NCBI GenBank assembly: GCA_003224525.1
Contig: QHZB01000198.1
Coordinates: 1 to 35,872, forward strand
Reading direction: 5' to 3'
DNA from: Acidobacteriota bacterium
Lineage (GTDB): Bacteria; Acidobacteriota; Terriglobia; Acidiferrales; UBA7541
DNA length: 35,872 nucleotides
Position numbers and translations under genes: made by a program. The notes under the pieces were generated by a model. The model did no database searches and was not told where the DNA came from. It worked only from the letters and a program-made list of their open reading frames with translations. Position 1 is the first letter of the stretch. The number at the start of each line of letters is the position of its first letter. Shown here one piece after another: positions 2,076 through 17,375 of this stretch.

Positions 2076-2122
2076 CAAGGCGCTGCAACTGCCGAGCGCT
2101 GGCCGGGGCTTCATAGGGCAGC

Positions 2123-2154: not shown

Positions 2155-2285
2155 TCTTGCCGTCTGATCGCCCATTCCATTAGGGAACGTATCGCGGAGT
2201 TTCGATTATTCTGATGATGTCACGCGCAAACCGGAAGTCGGGCCGACTCCAGTCCGCGCGGTCGCAATGTCTGACCATCTTGGAA

Positions 2286-2537
2286 TTAGCGGTGGGCGCA
2301 TCCGGGCCAACAACAGAGGCGTCGTTTTCCATCCTTAAGGCTTGAGCAGCCCCACTCGATCCGGCGGCTTCTAGTTTCTGCTTTTTTAGCTGACTCAATC
2401 TAACATATCCACTCGTTGCGTGCGAGCGGTGTAATGTCCTCCCATGCTGTTAACGCTTGCGGGTCGGATGTAAGTGCTTTTTTTAAATCTGCGGACACTT
2501 CGTGTACCACACCGCTAGAAATCTTTTTTTGCGTCAT
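2286..2537 (-). pseudogene. YdeI/OmpD-associated family gene interrupted by one in-frame TAG
   Basis: Starting at ATG 2537-2535, behind AAGGCGAG, the frame reads MTQKKISSGVVHEV..., then 'LTAWEDITPLARNEWIC', stops at TAG (2400-2402), and continues in the same frame as 'IESAKKAETRSRRIEWGCS' and 'LKDGKRRLCCWPGCAHR' to TAA at 2286-2288. The parts before and after the TAG together give a full-length (83-codon) member of the YdeI/OmpD-associated family, whose members have 'NEWICW-IESAKKAETR' and end in 'GKRRPCCWPGC'. The TAG stands where the family has Trp, so a single TGG-to-TAG change explains it. An upstream ATG at 2612 exists but would add residues the family lacks. The family is loosely tied to antimicrobial-peptide or stress resistance; its biochemistry is not known. 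Translational readthrough or a sequencing error are the alternatives. Confidence 0.8.
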
Positions 2538-2766
2538 AGATAAGCTCGCCTTTCGTAAGCCCAGCAGCGCGAGGATCTCTTGCTGAGCAAAGAATGTGGG
2601 TCGTTCGGCCATTCAGCGAGTCCTGACGCTCAGGTTAACTCGGCGCTTGACTATCCATTGCGGTCGTGTGACGGGCAACTCTTCCGTAATCGGACAAAGG
2701 AAGGGTTGCCGACAATACGGGAGTCAGGAATTGCAGCCTTGAACTTTCAAGGACTTCATTACCGCA

Positions 2767-3342
2767 TTAGCGCCGCGAGTCCGGTGGCACTAGGTTGTTC
2801 GCACGATAGTAGACCACAAGCTGGCCATAGTGCTCGCCGCTGTGCTCGATGGCGACCATCCAGATGGAGGAGTTGTGGGCCAGCCGGTTCCCAAAAAACT
2901 TTGATGTATTGTCCAGTCCCGCGTCGCCCTGCTGTTGAATCACTTTTGCTCCGTCCGCGACGGCCTCCTGCACGAACTTGACCACGTCGGCCTTCGTCTT
3001 GAAAGCGTCGCGCGAAGGATTGTCGCCCTCGCCGAAGTCAGGCCCGACGTTTGATCCGGAAATCCTGCGTATCAGGACGAAATCCAGTGCGGCGGCATGG
3101 AGAAGATTCAGGGCAAAGGTGCGCTGGTCCTTCTGCAGCTTGAAGTCGTATTTGTCTTCGGGAAAATCCTTCGCCATCGCGACGAGTTTGTTCCCAATGT
3201 CATTCCACCTGTCCAACATCTCATCGGATCGAGAGCGCGCCGGACTCGGAGCTTGACTCTGCGTTTGGGCCTGACTGTTAGGACTCATTCCGACGGCAGC
3301 AAGCAGAGTGGCCGCAACTAGCGCAAGTGAGGACCGTTTCAT
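2767..3342 (-). CDS. Secreted DinB-family (four-helix, metal-binding) protein
   Basis: A 191-residue protein with a classical signal peptide (basic MKRSS, hydrophobic core, cleavage near SQA-QT around residue 25). The mature part is a DinB/YfiT-like four-helix bundle: His82 ('LLHAAALDFVLIRR') and the pair His167/His171 ('EHSGEHYGQLVVYYRANN') sit where the family's metal triad lies, and the C-terminal 'YYRANNLVPPDSRR' is typical of DinB proteins in Acidobacteria. DinB-like proteins include thiol-dependent transferases, but the exported ones have no assigned reaction. A GGAGCAAT-type site (AAGGAGCAATCCACA before the ATG) supports the start at 3342. Confidence 0.85.
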   Translation of the reverse strand: MKRSSLALVAATLLAAVGMSPNSQAQTQSQAPSPARSRSDEMLDRWNDIGNKLVAMAKDFPEDKYDFKLQKDQRTFALNLLHAAALDFVLIRRISGSNVGPDFGEGDNPSRDAFKTKADVVKFVQEAVADGAKVIQQQGDAGLDNTSKFFGNRLAHNSSIWMVAIEHSGEHYGQLVVYYRANNLVPPDSRR

Positions 3343-3544
3343 TGTGGATTGCTCCTTATTTTGATCTGCTTTCAGGAATTCCCTTGGAGGTTAGACGGAA
3401 CGCTACTCCTAAAGTTTTGAGCAAATTTTCGGATCAAAAGTCGAAAAACTTGCATGTGACTGGAAGGATTGATCCAACACTTGGATGGCACCCGAGTAAC
3501 GCGTTTAATCGCCTGCAAATCGCAGCCGAGTTGGTGTTATCGTC

Positions 3545-4467
3545 GTGAAAATGATCATCAGGCACGTTCGTGCAGTGGAAGGACGTCCCCCAGAGGTCCC
3601 CACCGGCTGGCAGAAGCAAAACGCCTATCCTTCGCCCGATGGGAAACAGACCCTCTGGGTGGAGAGTCTAGGCGAGTTCACCATGGGCTCAAGGCACTAC
3701 GCCTTGCGGATTGGCAGCAGCGCCCTGACTTTCGAGAATGCGATACCACTTACTGTAAGGTTCCTGCAAAGGAAAAATCACGCATCGATTCCCCGGATTA
3801 CTATCAGCCCTGGTCGTGCGACAGTCGCTCGCTTCTGATCTGCCCTTACGGCAGTCCGCCGACCTTGCTTGACTTGGACAACCGGCGGGCCCGCGAGCTG
3901 CGCGTCAAGAAAGGGAGTTTGTTGACCGCCTTATGTTCACGGACACGCCCGCTGGCGTTTCTCGCGCCATGGGAATGGGCGCGTCCGGGAATAGCGGGCG
4001 AGAAAGCGTGTTTTGTGCCCCTTGACGGCGATCTATCTCCCAGCTTGGTTGTGAGCGGACCTGTGGCTTTTTCATACGCGGTCTGGTTGGGAGACCTGCT
4101 GTTGCTTCTTGAGCAAGATCCTTGGTCGCATCGCGCTACGCTCAAATTGCTCGACCCAATCCGCTCGCAGCCGGTCGCAGAAGCGGACGTGAGTCCGGAT
4201 CGGCTCCTGGCGTACGACAGTTCGCGAATCCGGCAACTCAAGATTGGTGGGTTTAGATCGGCAGATGGGAGGGGCAGCTGGGGCACAGCGTTTTTCTCCC
4301 TGGACGTCTGGAGCAGCTGCCACTATGTGGAATCCAAGAAAGCTCTGGTGATGAAGGTGGGACGTCCGGTAGGTGAACCTCAGAAGGAGCGCGGTTGGCT
4401 GCGGCGTGCGTACGAAGTTCCCATCAAGTTTGTATGGGTGGAAGTCGCTTTGGATTTCGAGGGCTAA
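3545..4467 (+). pseudogene. Protein of unknown function, probably one gene with a frameshift near 3730-3775
   Basis: Two overlapping frames look like halves of one protein. From GTG 3545 (or ATG 3551) the first reads MKMIIRHVRAVEG and 'YPSPDGKQTLWVESLGE', which is protein-like up to about residue 70 and then degenerates. The frame one base back becomes protein-like just there ('SRIDSPDYYQPWSCDSR', 'LLICPYGSPPTLLDLDN') and stays so to TAA 4465-4467. A long open frame starting at ATG 3469 covers the second half, but its first ~100 residues look like out-of-frame sequence. The product would be about 305 residues, rich in Trp and beta-strand-like segments, with no signal peptide. I do not recognise the family. 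If the frameshift is a sequencing error this is an intact gene. Confidence 0.5.
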
Positions 4468-4801
4468 GCGCCCGGCCAGACCAAAGAAAGCCGATTGCGG
4501 GCGGATGACGGGCCGGAAGTTATGCCAGGAGACCCTCAACCTCCGGATAGGCCGGCCATCTTGCCAGAACCCCCACCTGTAACTCTTCACCGGTCGATTG
4601 TTCCACTTGCTCGCTAGCTGCTAGCCGAAGTTCCACGTTGGCGATTGAATGGAGAAGAATCGCGGCACGTTTGCTCGTAAGAGGCACAAGGCACGTCGCA
4701 AGCCGAGTTCGGAAAACGCTAAAGCGTGAATATATATAATGACCCTCGTTCTCCGAGGCGCGGAGCGTTTATACTCAATCCGCTTGGTTTCGGGGGAGAA
4801 C

Positions 4802-4981
4802 ATGGCAACCGGCGCAATTCGCCACGGCAGTTCCCGCCCCGACAATCTCTTTTTCCCCGGCGTGGTCAGATCTCGTGACCACTGGGTAGTGAACCGAACG
4901 CTCGGAGCGATGAGAAATCTCTTCTGGTTGAGAACATTGGCGTTTCGCGACACTGGATGGCCCATGAGAACGACAACATGA
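4802..4981 (+). other. Possible 5' remnant of a membrane-protein gene
   Basis: ATG 4802 follows GGGGGAG and begins 'MATGAIRHGSSRPDNLFFPG', which resembles from memory the N-terminus of a multi-helix membrane protein of unknown function frequent in Acidobacteria. After about 22 codons the expected hydrophobic helix is absent and the frame runs through unrelated sequence to a TGA at 4979-4981. A TATAAT at 4735-4740 could be its -10 box. Low confidence; no domain can be assigned. Confidence 0.2.
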
Positions 4982-5261
4982 GCTCTCGCTACGGAAGCTC
5001 TTCTCGAAGACGTCCCATATCGTGAATGCGGCGAGAAAGTAGGCCTCGGTTTCAACCTGCCCATGCCGAAGCCCGTCCTGTTTGGGCTACGTGGGCTACA
5101 AAATAAGGAAAATGTAGTCGCAGCGTCACGCCACTTAACTCCAATTTGCAGAGGGAAATGGAGATCGTTGGGCGAGGACATTGGAACCACCGATCTCTTG
5201 GCACACAACCAGGATGTCGTCGGCACTTTTCTTCGCTGTAAGTTGTTGGCTTTAAAAGAAG

Positions 5262-5312
5262 TGGTCGGGGCGAATGGATTTGAACCATCGACCTCCTGGT
5301 CCCGAACCAGGC
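5262..5312 (-). other. 3' half of a tRNA-Pro(CGG); attachment-site-like remnant
   Basis: On the minus strand the sequence has a 5-bp anticodon stem (CCTGG/CCAGG at 5307-5311 and 5295-5299) enclosing the loop TTCGGGA, which puts CGG (Pro) at the anticodon, then AGGTC as variable loop, a T-arm with loop TTCAAAT (5278-5284) and stem GATGG/CCATT, the 3' acceptor strand CGCCCCG (5266-5272), discriminator A and an encoded CCA (5262-5264). The D-arm and 5' acceptor strand (expected CGGGGCG) are missing: what lies upstream is the hairpin repeat. A precise 3' half of a tRNA is what integration of tyrosine-recombinase elements leaves behind; no integrase is in the window. It cannot be a functional tRNA as it stands. 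Confidence 0.75.
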
Positions 5313-5388
5313 ACTTGAATCTCGTAAACGCTTTATATGACATCGCTTACGAGACAAGGAGCGTTATTTCCCTCTTCTTAGCTGTACC
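5311..5388 (+). repeat. Hairpin repeat, copy A (next to the tRNA-Pro remnant)
   Basis: Arms TCTCGTAAACG (5320-5330) and CGCTTACGAGA (5344-5354) pair over 11 bp with one A-C mismatch around a 13-base loop CTTTATATGACAT. It is followed by ACAAGGA, TTATTTC, and AGCTGTACC, then a second TGTACC at 5394-5399. The same order of blocks occurs at 16467-16549. The two copies share the loop (CTTTATmTGrCAT), most of the arms, GACAAGGA, TTATwTC and AGCTGTrCC. Role unknown; an integrase arm/core region is my favoured reading because of the adjoining tRNA half. Confidence 0.6.
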
Positions 5389-5409
5389 TAATTTGTACCC
5401 AGCAACACT

Positions 5410-5490
5410 CACAAGTTGGCGCCGTGCGGGAGACCCGGACTTAACTGAATAGTTTGGGCCTGCTCGTTAGACGTGTTCGCCAACTTTGTG
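5410..5490. repeat. Spaced inverted repeat upstream of the CRTAC1 genes
   Basis: CACAAGTTGGCG at 5410-5421 matches the reverse complement of CGCCAACTTTGTG at 5478-5490 with a single extra T, the arms being 56 bases apart. It lies between the hairpin repeat and the first CRTAC1 start (5531), so it might be part of the same attachment region, the ends of a very small element, or a looping operator. No target-site duplication is evident. Confidence 0.4.
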
Positions 5491-5530
5491 TGAAGATGTC
5501 TTTTGGGTTAAACGACCCACTTGGGGCCTG

Positions 5531-7387
5531 ATGCCTTCCTCGCGATCCAGCCAATTTAGGTGCGTACTCCTCGCAACCGCAGTACCCGCCATTTGTGTGA
5601 CGCTGCTTCTGAGCTCCGGGCTGGCCCAACAAAATCCCGCGGAAAAGGAGCCCGTCCGAGGCCAGCAGAGCGGCGTAAGCACGGGCGGCGCGTACGCTCC
5701 GGTGAAGGACCCACTTTCGCGACCGATTACGGCCGGGGGCTTTGTTGACGGCGCGCCGGTCATTTTCATTGAAATAACGCATGCGGCTGGTCTCGACATA
5801 TTCCATCATCGCTCAGGAACGCCCGAGAAAAGGACGATTCTAGAGACGCCCGGATCCGGCGTGGCGCTGCTCGATTACGACACCGATGGCTGGCTGGACA
5901 TTTACCTCCTGAATGGCTCGACTTTCCCCGGGCTGAAGGGCAAGGAAGCACCGCCGCGCGCCATGCTTCTGCACAACAACCATGACGGCACATTCACTGA
6001 CATTACGGAAAAGGCCGGCGTCGCCAACGAACGCTGGGGCTTCGGCGTAGCCGTGGGGGACTACGACAATGACGGGTGGCCAGACATTTATGTATCGAAC
6101 TTCGGCAAAAATCGGCTCTACCACAACAATCATGACGGCACATTCACCGATGTCGCGGAGAAAGCGGGCGTCACGCTCGGCGGCTGGTCGACCGGGGCGA
6201 CGTGGGGAGACTACGATCATGACGGCTTCCTCGATCTGTTCGTTCCGGGCTATGCAAAGTTTGATCCTGATCATCCGCCGGTCTCCGGGAAGGGCGGACT
6301 TCCGCCGGGCTTCTGTAATTTTCGCGGAATTGAGGTGATGTGCGGGCCGCGCGGCCTGGCGGGCGAAGGCGATCACCTGTTCCATAACAATGGAGACGGC
6401 ACCTTCACCGACGTGAGCGTAAAGGCTAAAGTTTCGGACCCTAAGGATTACTATGGATTCGCGTCCGTATTCGTTGACGTGGACGATGACGGCTGGCTCG
6501 ACTTAGCTGTTGCCAACGACTCCGTCCCTAAGTACCTCTATCGCAACAAACACGACGGCACGTTCGAGGACGTGAGCTATATTTCCGGGTTCGCGCTGAA
6601 TGACGAAGGGCGCGAACAGGCATCCATGGGTATCGCGGTGGGCGACTACAACCGCGACGGAAAAGTTGATTTCTACACTACCAATTTCTCCGACGACTAC
6701 AACACGTTGTACCGGAACGACGGCGACGGCAATTTTTCCGATGTGAGCGCCCGCGCAGGAATTGCTGCCGTTACTCTTCCATTTCTAGGGTGGGGAACTG
6801 GATTCCTCGACTACGATAACGACGGGTTGCTCGACATATTCGTTGCCAATGGGCACGTCTATCCGGGTGTCGATTTACAGGACTGGGGCACAACCTGGGC
6901 GCAGCGGCCGCTGCTGCTGCGCAATCTGGATGGATCGAAATTCCAGGAGGTGCTTGCGGCAACAGGCAGTGGTTTGGCAGTTGTTGTTTCGGCACGAGGC
7001 GCGGCGTTTGGCGACCTGTTCAACGATGGTCATATCGACGTTGTGCTCAATAACATTGATTCGAAGCCCACTTTGTTGCGGAATGTGGTCAAGAATTCGA
7101 ATCACTGGATCACGCTAAAGCTGCTGGGAGGCCCGAAGAGCCCCCGCGACGCGATCGGAGCTAAGGTATTTGTCACAACCGGAAGCGTGCGGCAACGCGG
7201 GGACATCTTCAGCGGTGGAAGCTATGCATCGAGTTCCGATCAACGCTTGCACTTCGGCCTTGGAGCGGCAGTGAAAGTGGACAGGGTGGAAATTCACTGG
7301 CCAAGCGGGGCGAAGGAAGAAATTACGATCCCCGCCATCGACCGCATCTTTACCGTGAAGGAAGGCAAAGGAATCATTGCGCCGTGA
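5531..7387 (+). CDS. CRTAC1-family secreted beta-propeller protein (FG-GAP/VCBS repeats, ASPIC/UnbV C-terminus)
   Basis: From ATG 5531 the protein has 618 residues. It starts with a signal peptide (MPSSRSSQFR, then a hydrophobic core ending at GLA-QQ near residue 34). The body carries seven calcium-binding loops of the form DxDxDGxxD (DYDTDGWLD, DYDNDGWPD, DYDHDGFLD, DVDDDGWLD, DYNRDGKVD, DYDNDGLLD, DLFNDGHID), consistent with a seven-bladed propeller, and the last ~75 residues are the ASPIC/UnbV module ('GAKVFVTTGSVRQRG', 'RLHFGLGAAVKVDRVEIHWP'). A TTG at 5486 would extend it but precedes no signal-like sequence. Such proteins are exported and thought to act in surface binding; no reaction is known. 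Its last codons overlap the next gene's GTG by 4 bases, so the two are translationally coupled. Confidence 0.92.
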   Translation: MPSSRSSQFRCVLLATAVPAICVTLLLSSGLAQQNPAEKEPVRGQQSGVSTGGAYAPVKDPLSRPITAGGFVDGAPVIFIEITHAAGLDIFHHRSGTPEKRTILETPGSGVALLDYDTDGWLDIYLLNGSTFPGLKGKEAPPRAMLLHNNHDGTFTDITEKAGVANERWGFGVAVGDYDNDGWPDIYVSNFGKNRLYHNNHDGTFTDVAEKAGVTLGGWSTGATWGDYDHDGFLDLFVPGYAKFDPDHPPVSGKGGLPPGFCNFRGIEVMCGPRGLAGEGDHLFHNNGDGTFTDVSVKAKVSDPKDYYGFASVFVDVDDDGWLDLAVANDSVPKYLYRNKHDGTFEDVSYISGFALNDEGREQASMGIAVGDYNRDGKVDFYTTNFSDDYNTLYRNDGDGNFSDVSARAGIAAVTLPFLGWGTGFLDYDNDGLLDIFVANGHVYPGVDLQDWGTTWAQRPLLLRNLDGSKFQEVLAATGSGLAVVVSARGAAFGDLFNDGHIDVVLNNIDSKPTLLRNVVKNSNHWITLKLLGGPKSPRDAIGAKVFVTTGSVRQRGDIFSGGSYASSSDQRLHFGLGAAVKVDRVEIHWPSGAKEEITIPAIDRIFTVKEGKGIIAP

Positions 7388-9168
7388 CACGCTGGCCGAA
7401 AGCCGATGCTCAACACTACCGTTATCGTAACGTTGATTCCAAGCTCGCAATCGTATTTCTCTGTTTGGTGGTTTCGGTTCCGCTGACGCTCGTCGTCGGC
7501 CAGGAGCACGGTTCAACTCCAACGGCGGCGTCATCAGGTCCTCCCGGGAAGTTCGTGGATATTACAGCCCGCTCGGGCGTAAATTTCCAGTACCAAGCAT
7601 CGCACACCTCGAAGAAGTATCTGCCCGAAACCATGGGGGCGGGAGTGGCGCTCTTTGACTACGACAACGATGGACGCCTGGATATTTTTTTTGTCAACGG
7701 GGCGCCTCTGAGCGATCCCACGCCAAAAGGTACGATTCCTCAGAAAACCGGACCGAAATACTGGAACCGTCTGTATCACCAAAAAGCCGATGGAACGTTT
7801 GAAGATGTGACCGAGAAGGCCGGCTTGCAAGGAACCGGATACGGTATGGGGGTGGCCGTGGGCGACTATGACAACGACGGCTACGAAGATCTCTACGTAA
7901 CCGCGTACGGAGGGAACAAGTTGTACCACAACAACGGCGACGGAACATTTTCCGACGTGACCGCGAAAGCCGGGGTTGGCGGCAGCGGATGGTCCACCAC
8001 CGCGGCGTGGTTGGATTTGGATGGAGACGGCTTTCTCGATCTCGTGGTGCTGCGGTACCTCGAGTGGGATTTCGACGACATCTGGTGCGGCGAGCACAAA
8101 GAAGGCTACCGCGCCTATTGCCATCCGGACTATTTCAAACCGGCGCGGCCGCTCATCTATCACAACAACGGAGATGGAACGTTCACGGAAGTGGCGGAAA
8201 AGCTCGGTCTTTCCAAACTCGCCAAAGGTCTTGGAGTGGCCCTGGCGGACTACGACCGCGACGGCCACATCGATCTGTTTTTTGCGAATGATTCGATGGT
8301 GGAATATCTGTATCACAACAAAGGCGACGGATCGTTTGAAGAAGTCGGATTGGTTTCCGAAGTGGCCGTGGATATTGACGGCCGCACTTATGCCGGCATG
8401 GGAGTTGATTTCGCCGACTACAATAATGATGGATGGCCGGACATCGTTGTCACGGACCTCGCCAATCAGCGGTATGCGCTTTATCAGAACAACGGCGACG
8501 GCACATTTACTTACGTGAGTACGCGATCCGGGCTTGCGGGGATCACGCTGGCACACTCGGGATGGGGCGTGCGGCTATTTGATTTCGACAATGACGGCTG
8601 GAAGGATTTGCTGATTGCGCAGGGCCACGATCTCGACACCATCGAACAGACGAACCCTAATCTGCGCTATCGCGAGCCAATGCTGCTGGCACGCAATACT
8701 GGCAAAGGATTCGTGGATGTGTCACAAAGCTCCGGCGAAGTGTTCAACCGATCCTGGGTGGCGCGCGGATTGGCGATTGGGGATCTGGACAACGACGGGC
8801 GGCTGGACGCCGTGGTGACGACGAACGACGGACCGGCGTATGTATTGCGCAACGAAACGCCTTCAGCGAATCACTGGCTGCTGCTCACACTCGTGGGGCA
8901 CAAGAGCAATCGCGATGCGATCGGCGCCAATATAAAGCTGGTTACCGCAAGCGGGCAGCAATTCGCCACGGTTTCCACGGCGAGCAGTTATCTTTCGTCC
9001 GGCGATAAGCGCGTTCACTTCGGGATCGGGAAAGAAAGCAGCGTGGAATCCATTGAGATTCGGTGGCCGAGCGGGATTGTACAGGCACTCAAGAACATTC
9101 CGGCGGACCAGGTCCTGCAAATTGGCGAACCGATCGCGCCTGCGAACGCGAAACCCGCGGTGAAATGA
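7384..9168 (+). CDS. CRTAC1-family secreted beta-propeller protein, tandem paralogue
   Basis: The 594-residue product begins at GTG 7384 inside the stop of the previous gene (GTGA). A signal peptide follows a long basic N-region (hydrophobic 'AIVFLCLVVSVPLTLVVG', residues ~22-39). It has seven DxDxDGxxD calcium loops (DYDNDGRLD, DYDNDGYED, DLDGDGFLD, DYDRDGHID, DYNNDGWPD, DFDNDGWKD, DLDNDGRLD) and an ASPIC/UnbV end ('RVHFGIGKESSVESIEIRWP'). It is clearly a diverged duplicate of its neighbour. The stop overlaps the ATG of the TPR gene (ATGA at 9165-9168), giving a three-gene coupled unit. In Acidobacteria CRTAC1 genes commonly travel with TPR genes; their joint role is not established. Confidence 0.93.
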   Translation: MTRWPKADAQHYRYRNVDSKLAIVFLCLVVSVPLTLVVGQEHGSTPTAASSGPPGKFVDITARSGVNFQYQASHTSKKYLPETMGAGVALFDYDNDGRLDIFFVNGAPLSDPTPKGTIPQKTGPKYWNRLYHQKADGTFEDVTEKAGLQGTGYGMGVAVGDYDNDGYEDLYVTAYGGNKLYHNNGDGTFSDVTAKAGVGGSGWSTTAAWLDLDGDGFLDLVVLRYLEWDFDDIWCGEHKEGYRAYCHPDYFKPARPLIYHNNGDGTFTEVAEKLGLSKLAKGLGVALADYDRDGHIDLFFANDSMVEYLYHNKGDGSFEEVGLVSEVAVDIDGRTYAGMGVDFADYNNDGWPDIVVTDLANQRYALYQNNGDGTFTYVSTRSGLAGITLAHSGWGVRLFDFDNDGWKDLLIAQGHDLDTIEQTNPNLRYREPMLLARNTGKGFVDVSQSSGEVFNRSWVARGLAIGDLDNDGRLDAVVTTNDGPAYVLRNETPSANHWLLLTLVGHKSNRDAIGANIKLVTASGQQFATVSTASSYLSSGDKRVHFGIGKESSVESIEIRWPSGIVQALKNIPADQVLQIGEPIAPANAKPAVK

Positions 9169-9482
9169 TGCGTGAGTACGGCAGCGATCGGTCGGGAATG
9201 CTCGGCAGGGCTGTGATGCTGCTGTTATTGGTTCCGTTTATATGCGCGCCGCAAACCGATAGCGAATATGCGCGAGGGGTAGCCGCGTTCCGCGCGGGAG
9301 ACTACGCTTCAGCCGCGGATTTGTTCGCCAAAGCTGAACTGGCTGCTCCAGGGACGAGCGACGCTCTCATCTATCAAGCAAAATCGCTCATTCATTTGCA
9401 GAACTTCAGTTCTTCGGAAAGCGCGCTTCGCCGCTATATCGCAGTGCACACGGACTCGCATGAAGCTCTGTATCGAAAGTGA
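9165..9482 (+). CDS. TPR protein, truncated by a deletion junction
   Basis: ATG 9165 overlaps the stop of the second CRTAC1 gene. The 105-residue product has a hydrophobic export segment ('AVMLLLLVPFICAPQ') and then two TPR-like helical hairpins ('YARGVAAFRAGDYASAADLF', and a second around 'LIYQAKSLIHLQNFSSSESA'). TPR partners of CRTAC1 proteins are normally several hundred residues long. This one stops abruptly after 'SHEALY' with RK and a TGA at 9480-9482, exactly where LacI-family sequence begins in another frame. I read it as a gene whose 3' part was deleted. Confidence 0.75.
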   Translation: MMREYGSDRSGMLGRAVMLLLLVPFICAPQTDSEYARGVAAFRAGDYASAADLFAKAELAAPGTSDALIYQAKSLIHLQNFSSSESALRRYIAVHTDSHEALYRK

Positions 9483-10134
9483 CGTCCGCGGAGTCGCGGT
9501 GATGACGTCTTCGATCGACAAGAGCATAGCTTCGGAGCTCATCGACGGGGGAATTGGCGTGGTGTTCTGCAACGTGAGCCCGGCCGAGAAGTTGGTGAGC
9601 ACCATTTCGATAGACTATCAACGCGGTATCGCGCAAGCCATCGAGCATATCGTAGGACTCGGTCACCGCCGCGCCGCGGTCATTGCTGGACCGGACGACA
9701 ACCGGACGGCCATTACAATCAAGGACGCGCTGGTTGCCGGATTGAAAAAGAGAGACGTCAACCCATTACCAGTGATCAGCAGTAACTACCGCATCGATGC
9801 TGGAGCCTCAGCGGTACGTGCCATTCTTTCAACGCCGGGGAAGCCCACGGCGATCTTCTGCGGCAGCGACCTTATAGCCTTGGGCGCCATGAGCGTTCTC
9901 GAAGAGGCGGGTGTGGGGATTCCGGAAGACATCTCCGTTATCGGCATCGACGACATCTCCTTTGCTTTCCTGGCACGCCCGCCGTTGACCACCATCCGTG
10001 TTCCTCGCGAGCGGGTGGGGACGACCGCCTTCGAGGCATTGGATAGGATGCTGAAGCTCAAACGGCGAAAAGGTGCAGAGTACTATTTGGAAAAAGAACT
10101 GGTCATTCGCAGGTCGACCACGACTGCTAGGTAG
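9460..10134 (+). CDS. LacI-family regulator, C-terminal sugar-binding part only (no DNA-binding domain)
   Basis: Residues from about position 5 match the periplasmic-binding-protein-like core of LacI/GalR regulators: 'GVAVMTSSIDKS', 'GIAQAIEHIVGLGHRRAAVI', 'AIFCGSDLIALGAMSVLEEA', 'ISVIGIDDISFAFLARPPLT' and the closing 'LVIRRSTT'. A complete LacI protein has ~340 residues with an N-terminal helix-turn-helix; this has 224 and lacks the HTH, hinge and first subdomain strand. The ATG at 9460 lies inside the truncated TPR gene, so it is an accidental start if used at all. The product could bind a sugar but not DNA. It lies just upstream of a LacI-type operator (10429-10453), which it can no longer serve. 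Confidence 0.8.
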   Translation: MKLCIESDVRGVAVMTSSIDKSIASELIDGGIGVVFCNVSPAEKLVSTISIDYQRGIAQAIEHIVGLGHRRAAVIAGPDDNRTAITIKDALVAGLKKRDVNPLPVISSNYRIDAGASAVRAILSTPGKPTAIFCGSDLIALGAMSVLEEAGVGIPEDISVIGIDDISFAFLARPPLTTIRVPRERVGTTAFEALDRMLKLKRRKGAEYYLEKELVIRRSTTTAR

Positions 10135-10145
10135 ATCAGTGTTAA

Positions 10146-10244
10146 ACGGATGAGCGGCAGTCCTGGCACGTTGAAACCACCAGCGGGAAGATCAGCATGT
10201 TGCCGTTTATCGCGATTGAGGACCAGCAGTATCCAACCTATTTG
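10146..10244 (+). pseudogene. C-terminal remnant of a GH127 (beta-L-arabinofuranosidase-like) gene
   Basis: Twelve bases after the LacI fragment, one frame reads 'ERQSWHVETTSGKISMLPF' then 'IAIEDQQYPTYL'. This lines up with the end of the intact GH127 protein at 31897-33726 ('QQNWQVETATADLNMLPF', 'TAISNEQYSTYL'). Only about 33 codons remain; everything upstream is gone and the native stop is replaced by read-on sequence to TAG. It marks the far end of a deletion. The rest of 10135-10540 holds the promoter and operator listed below and nothing else I can identify. Confidence 0.65.
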
Positions 10245-10389
10245 GGTGGTCTGATTAACTTTTCATCGGGTTGCCCCGTCATTTTTCTTGTTTCAAAACC
10301 AATCCTCGCTTTCTCCAAATAGTTCACGATCTGAACTTCTAGTCCACATGGATTGCATCATGAAAAGCGTTCTGCAGAAGAATGGAGCC

Positions 10390-10418
10390 TTGACAAGCCA
10401 TGTGAGGCTGCGTAAAAG
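10390..10418 (+). promoter_or_regulatory. Sigma70-like promoter for the Gfo/Idh-DUF1080 operon
   Basis: TTGACA (10390-10395, perfect -35) is followed after exactly 17 bases by TAAAAG (10413-10418, four of six matches to TATAAT). Transcription would start near 10425 and run into the palindrome at 10429-10453, leaving a leader of about 115 bases before ATG 10541. Confidence 0.55.
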
Positions 10419-10428
10419 AAGAGCGAAA

Positions 10429-10453
10429 GCAACCGGTTTCCGAAACCGATTGC
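10429..10453. promoter_or_regulatory. LacI/GalR-type operator palindrome
   Basis: GCAACCGGTTTC (10429-10440) and GAAACCGATTGC (10442-10453) form a 12-bp inverted repeat around one central C, with a single mismatched pair; the inner 7 bp per side are perfect. The composition (ACCGGTTT-like half-sites) is that of LacI-family operators. It begins about 4 bases after the predicted start of transcription, a position that allows repression. The nearest LacI gene has lost its DNA-binding domain. Confidence 0.65.
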
Positions 10454-10540
10454 ATATTTAGATTCATGTAATGGGCGGATCGCGACGGAGCGTGAGCCAT
10501 ATGCGCGGAAGCTGTAAGTAGCGCCAAAGGAGATTGCAAT

Positions 10541-11893
10541 ATGAGCAAGGCTGATTACTCGCGCCGTGAGTTTTTACAGAGAAGTGCAGGAATAGCGGGT
10601 GCTTCCCTTATCGGCGGCTCCATTCTACTGGAGTCCGAACCTTTGATCGCTTTGCCGCGATTGAATGCCCCCAGTGACAAGGTTCGCTTTGGAATTGTGG
10701 GAGTCGGCATGGAGGGAACGGGACTGCTGACCACTGCCGTTCAGCTCCCCGGAGTGGAGTGCGCGGCCGCTTGCGATCTTTACGACGGGCGTCACGAACT
10801 GGCGCGGGAAATTGTTGGAAAACCGATCCGCACGACGCGACGCTACAAAGAGTTGCTCGATGACAAAGAGATAGACGCCATCGTCATTGCAGTTCCCGAC
10901 CATTGGCATAAACAGGTCGTCGTGGACGCCGTGGGCGCGGGTAAGGATGTGTACTGCGAGAAGCCAATGTCGCACAGCCCTGCGGACGGCCTGGCGATGG
11001 TCGCAGCCGCAAAGAAGACGGATCGCATCGTGCAGATCGGCGCGCAGCGGACGAGTTCCGTCTTGTGCGCAAAAGCGAAAGAGCTTTTCGCAAGCGGAGC
11101 CATCGGTGAGCTAAGCCTTGTCGAAGGGAGTTTGGGCCGGAATGATCCCACTGGGGCCTGGGAATATCCCCCTCCAGCAGACTTATCTCCCGAGAACTTG
11201 GATTGGGATACCTGGCTCGGAACAGCACCCAAGAAGCCCTTTGACCCATTTCTTTTCGCGCGCTGGCGCTGCTGGAAGGAATATGGAACGGGCTTAGCCG
11301 GCGACTTGCTCGTTCACTTGCTCAGTGGGATGCAATTTGTTCTCGGAATCAATGAAGCTCCCAAACGAGCGTCGGCTTTTGGTGGCATTTACCGCTGGAA
11401 AGATGGGCGCAATACGCCCGACGTGCATCCGGTTCTGTTCGAATACGCAAACGTCCCGGTGTACATGCGCTTGACGCTGGGGACTGAAACCTCGGAAGTC
11501 ACTCGGTTTATGGGTTCCAAGGGCATCATCGAACTTACAGAGTTTGGCCTCAGCTACACCCCTCAAGCCGGGATTGACCTGGCTCCCAGCTATTACTGCC
11601 ACGGGCTCCCGAGCCGCCTGAAGAACACCTACTTCAAGCAGTGGCACGACGAGCACGATCCCAAACCGGGAGATGAGCCTGCCCCACAGAGCGTAAGTTA
11701 TCGGGGCAACGACTATGATGATCTGCGGCCGCATCTCTGGAATTTCTTCCAGTCCGTCCGGTCGCGGAAACCGGTCGTGCAGGACGTTGTGTTCGGTCAC
11801 AACGCAGCGCTCGGCTGTCACATGGCGAATGAGTCTTACTACCGGAAGAGCCCCGTGTATTGGGATTCCGTTTCGCAGACTATAAAGTCCTGA
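10541..11893 (+). CDS. Tat-exported Gfo/Idh/MocA-family oxidoreductase
   Basis: A 450-residue NAD(P)-dependent sugar oxidoreductase. It starts with a twin-arginine signal (SRREFLQRS, residues 7-15, then a hydrophobic Ala/Gly-rich stretch), so it folds with its cofactor before export. The Rossmann motif 'GIVGVGMEGTG' (about 51-61), 'AIVIAVPDHWHKQVV' and the family's catalytic-lysine motif 'CEKPMSHSP' are all present; a long C-terminal substrate domain follows. AAGGAG 7-9 bases before ATG 10541 fixes the start. Exported members with DUF1080 neighbours are associated with oxidation of glycosides at C3 (3-keto-glycoside pathways); that role is inferred from context. It is the first gene behind the promoter/operator at 10390-10453. 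Confidence 0.93.
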   Translation: MSKADYSRREFLQRSAGIAGASLIGGSILLESEPLIALPRLNAPSDKVRFGIVGVGMEGTGLLTTAVQLPGVECAAACDLYDGRHELAREIVGKPIRTTRRYKELLDDKEIDAIVIAVPDHWHKQVVVDAVGAGKDVYCEKPMSHSPADGLAMVAAAKKTDRIVQIGAQRTSSVLCAKAKELFASGAIGELSLVEGSLGRNDPTGAWEYPPPADLSPENLDWDTWLGTAPKKPFDPFLFARWRCWKEYGTGLAGDLLVHLLSGMQFVLGINEAPKRASAFGGIYRWKDGRNTPDVHPVLFEYANVPVYMRLTLGTETSEVTRFMGSKGIIELTEFGLSYTPQAGIDLAPSYYCHGLPSRLKNTYFKQWHDEHDPKPGDEPAPQSVSYRGNDYDDLRPHLWNFFQSVRSRKPVVQDVVFGHNAALGCHMANESYYRKSPVYWDSVSQTIKS

Positions 11894-11988
11894 CGCGCTG
11901 ATTGGCACTGCTCGTTTACGAAACGAGATGGAAGCGCAATGGTCGGCAAGCCGCTGTTTAGCGCCAAAGAAAGGGGCTCCGTAGTTCT

Positions 11989-12966
11989 ATGAAGCTTCAG
12001 AGGATCGTATTTGTGTTGGTGATGGTCATCTCGATGTTATCCGCCAGGGCGTATTCCCAAACCGGAAAATCCGCGAAAAGTACCTCCACTTCCGAATCCG
12101 TCAACGCTTTTCTGGGGCGCTGGGATTTGACGCTAAAGGCGCCAGATCGGGAGTATCCCTCGTGGTTGGAACTCCGCCAAGAGGGCGGACAACTGAAGGC
12201 CCAGATGGTGAGCCGCTGGGGAAACGCACGGCCGCTTTCCAAAGTTGCCCTCTCGAAAGGACGTCTTACTTTCGTTTCTCCGAAAGAGGAAGAAGAACGG
12301 CCCGACGATATGGTCTTCGAAGGAACCCTCGTCGGGAAGATGTTGTCGGGGACCACGACTGGGCCAGACGGAACCCCCTGGCAGTGGACCGGCCAGAGAG
12401 CGCCAGCTCTAAATCAAGAAAGTGCCCCGAAGTGGGGGAAGCCGATTTCCTTGTTTAACGGAAAAGATCTGACGGGATGGAGGATGGCAGGAACCGGTAC
12501 GAGCTTGTGGAAAGTCGAAGATGGTAGCTTGGTAAGTCCCGGGAACGGTCCTGAATTGATCAACGATTCCAAGTTTGAAGATTTCAAGTTGCATGTCGAA
12601 TTCAATTGCGGGGCAAATTCCAATAGTGGCGTCTATTTGCGCGGCCGGTACGAAGTTCAGATCGAAACCGACTCCATCGAGGAACCACCGAGTCACCACA
12701 TGGGCGGGGTATACGGTTTTTTGGCGGCTTTGCCGGAACTGCCCCGCAAGCCGGGGGAATGGCAGAGCTTCGATATCACGCTGGTCGGGCGTTGGGTCAC
12801 CGTCGTTCAAAATGGCCAGACCATCATCGATAGCAAAGAAATCCCAGGCATCACGGGCGGCGCCCTGGACAGCCACGAAGAACTGCCGGGACCCATTTAT
12901 CTTCAGGGAAGTGAAAAAGGGCACGTAGCCTATCGCAGTATGGTCATCACGCCAGCGGAGAAATAG
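11989..12966 (+). CDS. Secreted DUF1080 (3-keto-disaccharide hydrolase-like) protein
   Basis: A 325-residue protein with a signal peptide ('IVFVLVMVISMLSARAYS', cleavage near residue 24). Residues ~35-140 form a small beta-rich domain ('GRWDLTLKAP...LELRQEGGQL') and ~150-320 the DUF1080 (PF06439) jelly roll: 'PISLFNGKDLTGWR', 'LHVEFNCGANSNSGVYLRGR', 'YEVQIETDS', and 'GPIYLQGSEKGHVAYR'. Characterised DUF1080 proteins cleave 3-keto-glycosides by elimination/hydration. Placed 95 bases after an exported Gfo/Idh oxidoreductase, it is a good candidate to act on that enzyme's product in the periplasm. Substrate identity cannot be read from the sequence. Confidence 0.92.
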   Translation: MKLQRIVFVLVMVISMLSARAYSQTGKSAKSTSTSESVNAFLGRWDLTLKAPDREYPSWLELRQEGGQLKAQMVSRWGNARPLSKVALSKGRLTFVSPKEEEERPDDMVFEGTLVGKMLSGTTTGPDGTPWQWTGQRAPALNQESAPKWGKPISLFNGKDLTGWRMAGTGTSLWKVEDGSLVSPGNGPELINDSKFEDFKLHVEFNCGANSNSGVYLRGRYEVQIETDSIEEPPSHHMGGVYGFLAALPELPRKPGEWQSFDITLVGRWVTVVQNGQTIIDSKEIPGITGGALDSHEELPGPIYLQGSEKGHVAYRSMVITPAEK

Positions 12967-12994
12967 AAAGGATCAGCACGCCCCGGAACGGCTA

Positions 12995-14071
12995 ATGACT
13001 CACTTCTTGCGCGACATTCTTCGCCAGCCCAACGAGTTACAACGGACAATCGATTTTCTATTGGGAGCGGGCCGGCCGGCCATGGACGCGGCGACGACTG
13101 CAATCCGCAGCGCTCGCCACGTCTACTTGACTGGAATCGGCAGCAGTTGGCACGCGGTACTGACTGCTGGGCCGTTGTTTCACCTTGGCGCCCGCCCGGT
13201 CTATATGCAGGACGCAGCGGAGTTGCTGCAATTCGCCACTATTCCGCCGGACTCAGCAATGATCGTAATTTCGCGCAGCGGTCGCAGCGTGGAAATTGTC
13301 AATTTGCTCGACAAAGTTCGCAACAGCGGCGTGACCGTTATCGGCATCACCAATTCGAATGGCGGGCCACTCGCAAAAGAGGCGCAAATTTCCATTGTGG
13401 TTCCCCTCGAGATGGACCACGCGATTTCCGTCAATACTTATTCCACATTGGCGGCGACAGTCGGGATTCTAGCGAGTGCCGTCGTCGGCTCCTGGAATGC
13501 CACTCTCGCAACCTCGCTCTCCCGCGTCGTCGGAAGGACAGCGTTGGCCATTCCGGTCTGGCAGGCGCAGATTGCGGACACGCCTTGGCTTGCACCTGGG
13601 GCCGTTTTTTACTTTCTGGCTCGTGGTTCCAGCCTGGGGAGTTGCCAAGAGGCCAGGCTCCTTTGGGAGGAAGGCCTCAAATCGCCTGCGACCGCGATGG
13701 GCACCGGCAGCTTTAGGCACGGCCCACAGGAAATGGTTAACAAGGATGCGCGCTTCGGCATGTGGATTGATGGGGAGCGTATGCGTGGGCAAGACCTAGC
13801 CGTGGCCAGGGATCTGAGACAACTAGGGGCATCCATCATGCTGATCGGCCAAGACCTGCCACAGGATGCTGGGAACCTTGTATTCCAACTCCCGGCCGTA
13901 CCGCCCGACTGGCAATATCTCATCGATATCATCCCCGCACAACTCGCAGCCGAACGGCTGTCGCAGCTCTCAGGAGTTGATTGCGATTCCTTTCGTTATA
14001 GTTCTTTCATTGTCGAAGGCGAGTACGGCTTGTTGCGTGAAGAAGCTGGAACCCCCAAAGGTGAGAAATAA
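12995..14071 (+). CDS. SIS-domain sugar-phosphate isomerase/deaminase-like protein (GlmS C-terminal type)
   Basis: The 358 residues make two SIS domains without a glutaminase domain, as in AgaS/FrlB-type proteins. The first has 'YLTGIGSSWHAVLTAGPLF' and 'MIVISRSGRSVEIVNLL' (the S-x-S-G phosphate loop); the second has 'FYFLARGSSLGSCQEARL', 'LKSPATAMGTGSFRHGPQE', in which 'FRHGP' is the conserved GlmS-like element near the active site. The likely role is isomerisation or deamination of an amino- or keto-sugar phosphate in the cytoplasm. It lies 28 bases after the DUF1080 gene and 34 before the ROK kinase, so one transcript is likely. Confidence 0.9.
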   Translation: MTHFLRDILRQPNELQRTIDFLLGAGRPAMDAATTAIRSARHVYLTGIGSSWHAVLTAGPLFHLGARPVYMQDAAELLQFATIPPDSAMIVISRSGRSVEIVNLLDKVRNSGVTVIGITNSNGGPLAKEAQISIVVPLEMDHAISVNTYSTLAATVGILASAVVGSWNATLATSLSRVVGRTALAIPVWQAQIADTPWLAPGAVFYFLARGSSLGSCQEARLLWEEGLKSPATAMGTGSFRHGPQEMVNKDARFGMWIDGERMRGQDLAVARDLRQLGASIMLIGQDLPQDAGNLVFQLPAVPPDWQYLIDIIPAQLAAERLSQLSGVDCDSFRYSSFIVEGEYGLLREEAGTPKGEK

Positions 14072-14105
14072 CCCCACCCCTTGGGGAACTGAGGAACGAA
14101 ACGAG

Positions 14106-15065
14106 ATGCCGCGAAGGGAAATCGTGATTGGCGCCGTTGATATCGGCGGAACAAAGATAGCGGTCGGCATGGTGGATGACACCGGTAGGGTGTTGTCCAA
14201 GTTGGAGTCTCCGACCGACGCCCATCGTGGCTATTTAAATGGACTCGAGCGAATTATCGGCATGCTGCGAGAAACGGCACAGCATGCCGGCGTCCAGATC
14301 TCTGGCATCGGAATTGGATCCACCGGAATGGTGTATCCATCCAGCGGCGCCTTTGGCGATGTCGACTTTCTCCCGGGATGGCGGGGGAACAACCCGGTGG
14401 AAGATCTGGCGCGTGCGCTCAACGTGACCGTGGCTCTGGAAAACGACGCGGATGCTTCGGCACTCGGGGAGGCCAGTTGGGGCGCTGGAAGAGGCAAGCC
14501 CCGATTGGTTTACGTGACGGTGGGCACCGGAATCGGCGGCGGAATTATCTTCGATGGACAGCTTTATCGCGGCGCGGATATGGCCCATCCAGAAGTTGGT
14601 CACCACGTTATCGACCCATCCGGACCCCTTTGTACCTGCGGTTTCCGGGGATGTTGGGAATCGCTGGCGACTGGTCCGGCTATGATCGCATGGCTCAGAG
14701 CGCATGTAGCACACGACCACTGCTATCCCGTAGATCTGACCGCCGAACAAGTCTGCCAGCTCGCGCGACAGGGAGATGCCCTGGCTCGCCAGGCGGTTGA
14801 GCACGAAGCCTACTATCTGGGTCTCGGCCTGGCCAATTTGATCAATCTTTTTGTGCCGGACGTGATCGTCTTAGGCGGGAGCGTCATGAAGAGCGCGGCT
14901 CTCTTTCTTGACGGCATTCGCAAAGTAATTAGTCAAGGTTGCCGGTTCGTTCCGTTTGAGAAGACGGAACTGGACCTGGCCTCGCTGGGAGAGAACGCCA
15001 ATCTCATAGGTGCAGCGCGGGTCTGGCACCATCGCTTCAAACAGGGAGTCGCTCGGCCTTCGTGA
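14106..15065 (+). CDS. ROK-family sugar kinase
   Basis: A 319-residue ROK protein: ATP phosphate-1 loop 'GAVDIGGTKIAVGMVDD' near the start, 'LENDADASALGEASWGAG' (catalytic Asp region), 'VYVTVGTGIGGGIIFDG' (phosphate-2 loop), and the zinc signature CTCGFRGCWE with Cys176, Cys178 and Cys183. No helix-turn-helix precedes the domain, so it is a kinase and not a NagC/Mlc-type repressor. Sugar unknown (glucose, N-acetyl-hexosamine and fructose are all possible). ATG 14106 begins right at the conserved N-terminal strand; longer upstream frames overlap the SIS gene and look out of frame. Confidence 0.93.
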   Translation: MPRREIVIGAVDIGGTKIAVGMVDDTGRVLSKLESPTDAHRGYLNGLERIIGMLRETAQHAGVQISGIGIGSTGMVYPSSGAFGDVDFLPGWRGNNPVEDLARALNVTVALENDADASALGEASWGAGRGKPRLVYVTVGTGIGGGIIFDGQLYRGADMAHPEVGHHVIDPSGPLCTCGFRGCWESLATGPAMIAWLRAHVAHDHCYPVDLTAEQVCQLARQGDALARQAVEHEAYYLGLGLANLINLFVPDVIVLGGSVMKSAALFLDGIRKVISQGCRFVPFEKTELDLASLGENANLIGAARVWHHRFKQGVARPS

Positions 15066-15164
15066 AGTACCGCCGCGAGCGGCGGCCATTTGCCAGACCG
15101 ATCCAGCCATCCCCGGCGCCGCTGGACACGCAGCAATCAGTTGGGAGAGAGAGAAAGGCAACTC

Positions 15165-16430
15165 ATGGTGAGAAGCCGCTATACGGTCAGCTTGGTGTTC
15201 CTTACTTTTTTCGTGATCTCCTTGCTGACCAATATCCTTGGTCCCATTGTGCCGGACATTATCACCAGTTTTCACGTGAGTCTGACTGCCGCGGGTTTTC
15301 TGGCCTTTGCCTTTTTCATCGCTTATGGAGTGATGTCCATACCTGCCGGTTTTTTGGTGGAACGATTCACCGAAAAACCTGTGATGGTGCTGGCCTTCTT
15401 GGCAGGGACGCTGGGATCACTGAGTTTCGCATTGTTCCCCGGATATCGCGTTGCCATCATTTCCTATTTCACCATCGGCGCTGGCATGGCCGTTCTGCAG
15501 GTGGCCATCAACCCGTTGTTGCGGGTCGCGGGCGGGGAAGAACACTACGCATTCAATTCGACTTTGGCCCAATTAGTTTTCGGAAGCGCATCATTTGTCA
15601 GTCCGCGAATTTACTCTTATCTTGTGCTAAATCTCAAGGATCCTTCGCCCGATCAAAATATCGTTTTGCGCATCCTGCGGTGGCTGACGCCCGCAGAATT
15701 GCCATGGGCTTCGATCTACTGGATTTTCGTTGTTTCCGCCATAACGATGGTGGTCGTTTTATTCTTTGCTAGGTTCCCAAAAGTTCAGCACACCGCCGAA
15801 GAGCGTGCGGGGTCTTTGAACATGTACCGATCCCTGGCGCGCCAACGGGTTGTGTGGCTTTACTTTGCGGCGATGTTTGCTTACGTGGGCTGTGAACAAG
15901 GCACCGCCGATTGGATGTCGAGCTTTCTGAACCAGTATCACGGTTTTGATCCTCATACCACGGGTGCTGCAGCGGTTTCCTGGTTCTGGGGCTTACTCAC
16001 GGCGGGTTGTTTAGTGGGGATGTTATTGTTGAAGATCTTCGATAGCCGCAAGGTGCTCATGGGTTCATCCATAGGGGCTCTGTTCTCTTTGTCTGCAGCC
16101 TTGTTTGGATCCGCAAAGGTTTCCGTAATTGCTTTTCCCGCAGTCGGTCTGTTTGCCTCGGTAATGTGGCCTATCGTAGTGTCGCTGGCTCTCAATTCCG
16201 TCGAGGAGTTCCACGGTTCTTTCTCAGGCATTTTGGGTACCGGAATCATAGGCGGAGCGATAGTGCCGGTGATCATTGGGCGCATCGGAGACTACGCTGG
16301 ACTGCGTAGCGGCTTGGCATTTCTCTATGTTATGTTTGGGTTTGTCCTCAGCGTTGCCTTCTGGGCGCGACCAGTGATCAACAATGCCACCATTCGTCTC
16401 AAGAAAGCGTCTGCTGAGCTTTTAGATTGA
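15165..16430 (+). CDS. MFS sugar transporter (FucP/glucose-galactose porter-like)
   Basis: The 421-residue product is hydrophobic throughout with about 12 membrane segments. It opens 'SLVFLTFFVISLLTNILGPI' and has the pattern of the FHS/FucP branch: 'FFIAYGVMSIPAGFLVERF' in helix 2/loop 2-3, 'ALFPGYRVAIISYFTIGAGM' and 'QVAINPLLRVAGGEEHYAF' around helices 3-5. ATG 15165 has AAAGG five bases upstream; an ATG at 15090 would add a basic, non-membrane tail. It closes the five-gene set starting at 10541 and probably imports the sugar or keto-sugar that the exported enzymes release, with a proton as coupling ion in this family. Confidence 0.9.
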   Translation: MVRSRYTVSLVFLTFFVISLLTNILGPIVPDIITSFHVSLTAAGFLAFAFFIAYGVMSIPAGFLVERFTEKPVMVLAFLAGTLGSLSFALFPGYRVAIISYFTIGAGMAVLQVAINPLLRVAGGEEHYAFNSTLAQLVFGSASFVSPRIYSYLVLNLKDPSPDQNIVLRILRWLTPAELPWASIYWIFVVSAITMVVVLFFARFPKVQHTAEERAGSLNMYRSLARQRVVWLYFAAMFAYVGCEQGTADWMSSFLNQYHGFDPHTTGAAAVSWFWGLLTAGCLVGMLLLKIFDSRKVLMGSSIGALFSLSAALFGSAKVSVIAFPAVGLFASVMWPIVVSLALNSVEEFHGSFSGILGTGIIGGAIVPVIIGRIGDYAGLRSGLAFLYVMFGFVLSVAFWARPVINNATIRLKKASAELLD

Positions 16431-16466
16431 TGGGAACTGTTTCGCAGAGATGCACTCAGAGTCCCC

Positions 16467-16549
16467 TGGCTGAAAAACTCTAAGTGCTTTATCTGGCATC
16501 GCTTAGGGACAAGGACCTTATATCAGTCATTGGGCCTACTAGCTGTGCC
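16467..16549 (+). repeat. Hairpin repeat, copy B
   Basis: Arms CTCTAAGTG (16478-16486) and CGCTTAGGG (16500-16508) pair over 9 bp (two G-T pairs) around the 13-base loop CTTTATCTGGCAT, followed by ACAAGGA, TTATATC and AGCTGTGCC. This is the same arrangement as at 5311-5388, in the same orientation. One G-C pair of copy A is absent from both arms here, and the A-C mismatch of copy A is a G-C pair here. Its right end overlaps the last codons of the metallo-hydrolase gene. No tRNA sequence adjoins this copy. Confidence 0.55.
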
Positions 16550-17375
16550 ATTGTTCGCCGCAGCGTAGCACCCTGAAGGGCTGTCCTAACTTGCGGCATT
16601 CGTGGATGAATTCGTCCGGCGAAGCGCTATTGAATTCGAACATTTCGAAATGGCACGGTATGACCAGTTTCGCCTCCATGTCTTTTGCCAACTTAGCCGC
16701 TTCGCGTCCGAATAAATTGCCCGGAACGCGCCGTTCTAGCGCCCGTCCGTTAATGGGAAGGAGCGCGACGTCTGTTCTGAAGGGCCGCAGTTTTTCTGCC
16801 ATTCCTTCGTATCGGACGGTGTCACCGCTGTGGTAAATCGTCCAGCCGCCGAATTCGAGAACATATCCCAAGTACTTCGCGCGACCGTGTTCATCTCGTT
16901 CCACTGTTTCGTGGGCCGACGCGATGCCGGAAAATCTGATCCCCGAGATTTCCACCGAAGTTCCATCGTCTACGCCAATCGGAATTGCAGGGTCAATCTT
17001 CAGCCGATCTGCCACAAATGCCCGATTGGCTTCCGCAACCACAAGTTTCAGGCTTGGGTTTGCCGCAAGGATCGGACGGAGTGTTTCCGCATCGAGATGA
17101 TCCGTGTGGTTGTGCGTGGAAGCGGCGATATCCGCCATCGAGAGACGCGCGGGATCAATTACCAGCTCCGTCATCCGGACGTGAGGTTTGTCAGTTTGTT
17201 TGTACTTCTTGGTCAGCGAATCTGAAAGATAGGGATCGAGCAGGACGTGTATTCCCTGCCATTGCAGCAGGAAGCCACTCTGTCCCAGCCACCACAAACG
17301 AAAACTGCCGTCGCGCCGATCGGAGGCGTGAATGTCTGCGAGCAGCGCGACGTGGGACTGGAAAGGCCGGATCAC
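16539..17375 (-). CDS. UlaG-like metallo-beta-lactamase-fold hydrolase
   Basis: Starting at GTG 17375, which overlaps the previous gene's TGA by 4 bases, the protein has 278 residues; an ATG at 17447 would add 24 residues inside the upstream gene. It begins 'LWWLGQSGFLLQWQGIHVLL', carries the metal motif 'STHNHTDHLDA' (H88, H90, D92, H93), and later 'IYHSGDT' and 'KLVIPCHFEMFEFN' with further ligands. This is the layout of UlaG/L-ascorbate-6-phosphate lactonase and related hydrolases, which open sugar lactones or cleave phosphodiesters. As the last gene of a four-gene overlapping sugar operon, a lactonase role fits, with substrate unknown. Confidence 0.88.
   Translation of the reverse strand: MIRPFQSHVALLADIHASDRRDGSFRLWWLGQSGFLLQWQGIHVLLDPYLSDSLTKKYKQTDKPHVRMTELVIDPARLSMADIAASTHNHTDHLDAETLRPILAANPSLKLVVAEANRAFVADRLKIDPAIPIGVDDGTSVEISGIRFSGIASAHETVERDEHGRAKYLGYVLEFGGWTIYHSGDTVRYEGMAEKLRPFRTDVALLPINGRALERRVPGNLFGREAAKLAKDMEAKLVIPCHFEMFEFNSASPDEFIHECRKLGQPFRVLRCGEQWHS

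Follow-up and report, generated by a model that had tools for sequence, protein, structure and literature searches.

Structure of the Locus

The window analyzed in this study covers positions 1 to 35,872 (forward strand) of contig QHZB01000198.1 from assembly GCA_003224525.1, which belongs to an Acidobacteriota bacterium of the order Acidiferrales, hereafter the host. It carries two copies of a dyad, a motif of inverted half-sites around a short spacer, which is considered here as a part of the attachment site of islands integrating at tRNA genes. Copy A (CTCGTAAACG-CTTTATATGACAT-CGCTTACGAG, 5321–5353, within a conserved dyad region at 5320–5354) and copy B (CTCTAAGTG-CTTTATCTGGCAT-CGCTTAGGG, 16478–16508) are both on the plus strand, and ACAAGGA, TTATwTC, and AGCTGTrCC follow downstream of each. 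A preliminary description, made from the sequence alone, presented them as diverged copies of a hairpin element bracketing 11.2 kb; the sequences, coordinates, and shared orientation it gave for both copies were correct, and the G5324-C5350 pair and A5328/C5346 mismatch were accurately described. To avoid circularity, the weight matrix used for scoring was derived from 55 other copies and excluded A and B. Scores were 51.5 for copy B and 28.1 for copy A; no other site in the window exceeded 5.0, and the best score in 100 dinucleotide shuffles of the window was 17.8. Copies A and B are true relatives beyond chance similarity. Copy A was also matched by the search model, both in the host search and in that of the 61 genomes; copy B is of the tRNA-Pro subtype, with its nearest relatives in genomes G028 and G029.

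Copy A lies directly beside the 3' half of a tRNA-Pro(CGG) gene, CCA included (5262–5312, minus strand), as the preliminary description had suggested checking for tRNA 3' ends. The half is identical over 5263–5312 to intact tRNA-Pro(CGG) genes of the host (contig C36) and of the relative G018 (contig C220), and the shared sequence stops at 5312, one base past the anticodon stem. The anticodon stem-loop, read directly as CCTGG-TCCCGAA-CCAGG (5295–5311, strand unassigned), is the presumed recombination core. ARAGORN reported no tRNA in the window, the tRNA-Pro half included. In G018, the flank to the left of copy A (4877–5312, 96% over 439 bp) continues into the intact tRNA-Pro(CGG) gene, and the two sequences diverge at 5313; because of this, an insertion is considered to have entered the tRNA gene at the end of the anticodon stem, with copy A as its first feature. 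An arm-type direct repeat, TGTACC twice at 11 bp apart, was read at 5382–5399 (plus strand), and the corresponding repeat of copy B, decayed in comparison with G028 and G029, was read at 16543–16559 (plus strand).

The cargo between the copies (5467–16464, plus strand) was delimited by Pfam annotation and by homologous blocks in relatives. It encodes two ASPIC/UnbV-FG-GAP (CRTAC1-like) proteins, a protein with a LacI-type sugar-binding domain, Gfo/Idh, a 3-keto-disaccharide hydrolase (DUF1080), and SIS, ROK, and MFS proteins. Cargo blocks were also found in five relatives (G016, G010, G029, G014, and G020), and blocks from both halves of the A-B segment share a single contig in G016 and G020. 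The homology starts at 5449–5477 in G029, G016, G014, and the host contig C423 and at 5699 in G020, and it ends at 16464 in G010, 16431 in G020, and 16420 in G016. Since these blocks start and end near the two copies, A and B lie near the edges of a cluster that has other neighbors elsewhere. The matrix finds no dyad in the stretches fetched around the cargo blocks of the five relatives, so that large blocks of the 11 kb do occur in related genomes without the hairpins, a finding that had been named beforehand as evidence against a hairpin-bracketed unit.

Distribution of the Motif

The host genome was searched at E values up to 1 with a sequence-only model built from nine host copies, which gave 27 places, A and B included. 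The search of the relatives covered 61 genomes (60 relatives and the host) at E values up to 0.001, with stricter filters that lose weak matches. It gave 124 places in 23 of the 61 genomes, comprising 22 of the 36 genomes of the genus, host included, and one genome from another family of the class. An exact pattern scan of species genomes returned 38 stretches, all titled as metagenome-assembled genomes of Acidobacteria, Acidiferrales, or Terriglobia (24 gp2 and 4 gp1). With so many further copies, the earlier concern that A and B might have no others in the genome or its relatives no longer applies.

tRNA Halves and Complete Elements

A total of 68 ends was classified, namely 67 of the 124 places from the relatives' search and one host place. 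By pattern, a tRNA half was located upstream of the dyad at 43 of the 68 ends, compared with 250 of 5000 random stretches; 29 were 3' halves and 14 were 5' halves. By a simple test, 29 of 61 ends had a tandem repeat beyond the dyad, compared with 154 of 3000 random stretches.

The order of parts is displayed by a complete element in G031, which consists of a displaced tRNA half, the dyad, direct repeats, cargo, a tyrosine integrase gene, and a restored tRNA gene. A tRNA-Arg(TCT) 5' half and the dyad form one end, and the integrase gene and an intact tRNA-Arg(TCT) gene form the other. A perfect 39-bp repeat occurs at both ends, 5.4 kb apart, and stops in the anticodon loop, and both ends use the direct repeat unit TTGTACCGAA. 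The preliminary description had also asked whether copies adjoin integrases, and in G031 the dyad and the integrase belong to one element. The interior encodes an AbiEi/AbiEii pair and a TonB/TPR protein. In G010, a tRNA-Pro 3' half with the dyad stands opposite an intact tRNA-Pro(CGG) gene at a distance of 6.3 kb, and efflux genes (AcrB-type and outer-membrane) lie in the interval. In both elements, a tRNA fragment at one end and an intact tRNA at the other form direct repeats; the window has only the fragment end, at copy A. A crossover within the anticodon stem-loop is indicated, by sequence only, at the G031 and copy A junctions.

Several further arrangements were observed. The AbiEi/AbiEii pair (10201–12401 of locus L142, the complete G031 island) is a toxin-antitoxin system of type IV, which is among the known kinds of phage defense. 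On the host contig C436 (locus L059, 6726–6922), a dyad end of one subtype adjoins, back to back, a dyad end of another, and nothing but an anticodon-loop-like core separates the two; this looks as if an island using a 5' half and one using a 3' half had recombined with each other. The ARAGORN call of a tRNA-Leu at the C68 junction was rejected; when read directly, the junction consists of a tRNA-Arg(TCT) 3' half joined to the dyad end.

Integrases and Direct Repeats

Homologues of the G031 integrase, chosen by protein similarity independently of tRNA, were found at 87 places in 28 of the 36 genomes of the genus. By pattern, a tRNA or tRNA half was present within 240 nt after the stop codon in 32 of the 38 integrase ends that were read. 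After the removal of five frameshifted or cut ends, 29 of 33 had one within 130 nt, as against 172 of 3000 random places. Of the 15 loci L200–L214, 11 have a tRNA according to ARAGORN (three Arg(TCT), three Pro(CGG), three Ala(CGC), one Asn(GTT), and one Arg(CCG)). A tyrosine integrase beside a tRNA was found at the integrase ends and not within the A-B segment. Of the 33 ends, 25 carried direct repeats within the final 75 nt of the integrase gene (random, 370 of 3000). A TAAGT box conserved at the stop of the integrase gene (20 of 33 versus 48 of 3000 random places) was left out as evidence, the random places not being tied to stop codons.

The domain PF00589 was detected in all six integrases of one set and in four of five of another, whereas in the fifth an integrase SAM-like domain was the only one. 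In sequence, the closest relatives of solved structure are the 'Int protein' chains 6en0 and 6emz, which we take to be the Tn1549 integrase. Weak relatives of the integrase were found in 14 of 50,697 phage records, with 24–26% identity among the eight matches listed. A separate observation concerns three tandem tyrosine recombinase genes of the host (contig C403, locus L092, 1510–3874), which are reminiscent of recombinase-in-trio (RIT) elements, likewise with three such genes in tandem. RIT elements were rejected as an explanation of the motif: the trio is not flanked by it, and the sole dyad found on C403, at about 7860, follows a separate integrase fragment.

Pairing of the Dyad

Covariation was evaluated in 59 distinct copies after 7 of the 68 ends, which did not fit an ungapped 25-nt frame, had been excluded. 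The six pairs of the inner stem were paired in 92.1% of cells, compared with a shuffle mean of 92.2%, and no double changes were found. The position of 5324 is G in only one of the 59 copies, and that of 5350 is C in 54. For the A5328/C5346 pair, 57 copies have the C, opposite either G (40 G-C) or A (15 A-C). Changes formerly called compensatory are therefore one-sided across the larger set, and neither compensatory change preserving the inner stem nor the selection for a base-paired hairpin deduced from it is upheld. The right half-site, TCGCTTA, is nearly invariant in these copies, and the left one is variable. Folding as single-stranded DNA is modest (copy A, z = −2.37; copy B, z = −1.28), and the motif has no match in Rfam at gathering scores.

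Interpretation and Alternative Explanations

From these results, it is very probable that the hairpins represent a dyad in one attachment-site arm of tRNA-targeting, integrase-driven islands in uncultured soil Acidobacteria, which transport sets of accessory genes. The assignment to one arm of the attachment site (attP) is made because of the tRNA halves at the dyad ends, the G018 junction, and the complete element of G031. The preliminary description had offered a mobile unit, a pair of attachment arms, or a dispersed structured repeat not previously named. An attachment arm of tRNA-integrating islands, with copy A at a tRNA half, is retained from these proposals, as are the dispersed character of the repeat and its link to integrases; copies A and B as the two ends of one unit are not, and the motif belongs to such an arm instead of being an unnamed hairpin element.

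In the proposed mechanism, a dyad of the type TAARYGC-N11-TCGCTTA would lie in one arm of the island attachment site, and the tyrosine integrases of the family are predicted to recombine at the anticodon stem-loop of tRNA genes, presumably with the direct repeats and the anticodon core as their binding sites. The dyad is better explained as a protein-binding site than as a functional folded hairpin; at a guess, the protein might be an accessory factor for bending or directionality. Copy A would be the dyad end of an island at the tRNA-Pro(CGG) gene, with cargo from about 5467. In G031, the 3' end of the integrase gene carries the same direct repeat as the dyad side; the island of copy A would have lost its integrase end. 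Copy B would mark the dyad end of another, older tRNA-Pro island that abuts the cargo of the first. No tRNA-Pro half was detected to the left of copy B (alignment score 13; random mean 17); the closest relatives of this copy found, in G028 and G029, adjoin tRNA-Pro halves. Probably, copies A and B represent the same end in two adjacent decayed islands, and the simplest reading would be two neighboring tRNA-Pro islands from which the integrase end of the first and the intervening tRNA half were deleted. Entry of copy B's island at a secondary site is possible.

The position of A and B near both edges of homologous cargo blocks (5449–5477 in most, 16420–16464) could also be expected if they bounded one 11.2-kb mobile unit moving as A-cargo-B. 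This is improbable. In complete elements, the dyad is at one end and the opposite end has the integrase and tRNA, but A and B point the same way and represent a single end type; copy B, moreover, lacks a tRNA half, and no motif accompanies the cargo blocks of five relatives in the stretches fetched. Two inverted half-sites separated by a short spacer are reminiscent of a tyrosine-recombinase core, and copy B has a dyad and no tRNA, which would agree with the dyad itself being the recombination core, cut by the integrase between its half-sites. The perfect 39 bp shared by the G031 ends, however, comprise the tRNA half and end in the anticodon loop, and the identity between the window and G018 stops at 5312, before the dyad begins at 5320, which makes this explanation very unlikely.

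A dispersed structured RNA or REP-like repeat under selection for a folded hairpin would account for copy A folding somewhat better than shuffles and for a small pairing excess in three outer pairs (one C bulged). Such a repeat appears barely credible given the inner stem without covariation, the absence of a match in Rfam, the tRNA halves at 43 of 68 ends, and conservation that reaches into the direct repeats; a structured RNA family was rejected on the first two grounds, with the outer pairs weakly in its favor. These outer pairs are among the observations that weigh against the attachment-arm interpretation. They are 59% paired versus a shuffle mean of 54%, a value reached by 3 of 1000 shuffles, and show six double changes, reached by 22 of 1000, in a control that does not keep the relatedness among copies; the excess is a weak pairing signal, and shared ancestry could give the same. 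The other opposing observations concern missing or discordant parts. By pattern, 25 of the 68 ends, copy B among them, have no tRNA half, although several would still show an anticodon arm by eye. A profile search found no integrase between A and B, none was detected in the otherwise complete element of G010, and among the dyad-bearing loci of the host, which are on short contigs, only C403 and C479 have an integrase-like frame. In G030 (contig C378) and G016 (contig C237), where the dyad comes after an integrase end and a tRNA half, the repeat units differ on either side; these are read as two neighboring elements in tandem. The tandem-plus-deletion history of copy B, finally, is one that we infer.

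As a more speculative extension of the attachment-arm interpretation, and one rather doubtful at present, a common factor might dock at the shared dyad, so that islands without an integrase, at different tRNAs and with either half, would be mobilized in trans, and cargo shuffling across the genus would build metabolic blocks in tRNA-anchored arrays. In practical terms, the dyad, tRNA half, and direct repeats together provide a simple handle for island ends in fragmented metagenome assemblies of Acidobacteria. The data suggest that the CRTAC1 and Gfo/Idh-DUF1080 cargo blocks can travel on tRNA islands, and a single motif serving both tRNA halves makes tRNA-half switching by an integration module testable.

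Comparison with Known Systems

Tycheposons are likewise cargo islands at tRNA genes with tyrosine recombinases. Papers from 2002 reportedly dealt with tRNA sublocation and with integration at 5' halves. According to the accessible text of the cited papers, the Islander islands (PMC4383910) share with the present ones a tyrosine integrase, a tRNA split at the anticodon with a displaced fragment at one end and a restored tRNA at the other, and tandem arrangement. Among Islander islands, 159 have a 5' fragment and 3760 a 3' fragment; unlike these, the islands studied here use either half (29 3' and 14 5') with one shared dyad, and no description of such a dyad was found in the accessible text of that paper. 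The attP of heterobivalent integrases of the lambda/KplE1 kind (PMC2951348) has a core flanked by arm-type and accessory-protein sites; the core and arm-type repeats are similar here, as read from sequence. The KplE1 integrase promoter overlaps attL (PMC2951348), whereas in the present islands it is the 3' end of this gene that lies toward the tRNA. The pTN3-like archaeal integrases (PMC8371274) also use the 5' half of tRNA, whereas the islands reported here are bacterial and both halves are used in one family. Nothing recognizable as this dyad family was found in the literature, including the accessible parts of PMC4383910, PMC8371274, PMC2951348, and PMC3174227, which does not establish its absence from print. 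The islands are thus known in kind, as tRNA-anchored islands with an anticodon-centered site (PMC4383910, as far as its accessible text goes). The family is large in these Acidobacteria, uses several tRNAs and both halves, and is undescribed as far as the literature searches went.

Other Features of the Window and Viral Contigs

To the left of copy A, a probable decayed C-terminal end of an integrase from a neighboring tRNA-Pro island was located at 4942–5065 (plus strand) from two collinear, weak profile pieces (E values of 0.086 and 0.041; one integrase gives pieces at 0.002). The tandem repeat TGGGCTAC at 5081–5099 (plus strand), by direct reading, is of the kind present at the 3' ends of the family's integrase genes. 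A second, decayed tRNA-Pro 3' half at 5155–5212 (minus strand) had a local alignment score of 45, the best unrelated place in the window scoring 38, and its assignment is likely but not strong. Together, these features are probably traces of the integrase end of another element. Further left, positions 1–4877 form a patchwork of stretches 87–98% identical to several relatives (for example, 1–486, 1510–2224, and 2669–3501), and the first 189 bases coincide with the end of the host contig C54, pointing to other mobile or repeated DNA.

Two pattern matches were obtained in viral contigs (L198 and L199). The match in L199 looks like chance, with a matrix score of 20.5 and a position inside a predicted baseplate/tail gene. 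The contig L198 (587–9241), which encodes a portal protein, terminase, HNH protein, and integrase, has, next to its integrase gene, a tRNA-like 3' half with the dyad and direct repeats nearby, in an arrangement unlike that of the islands.

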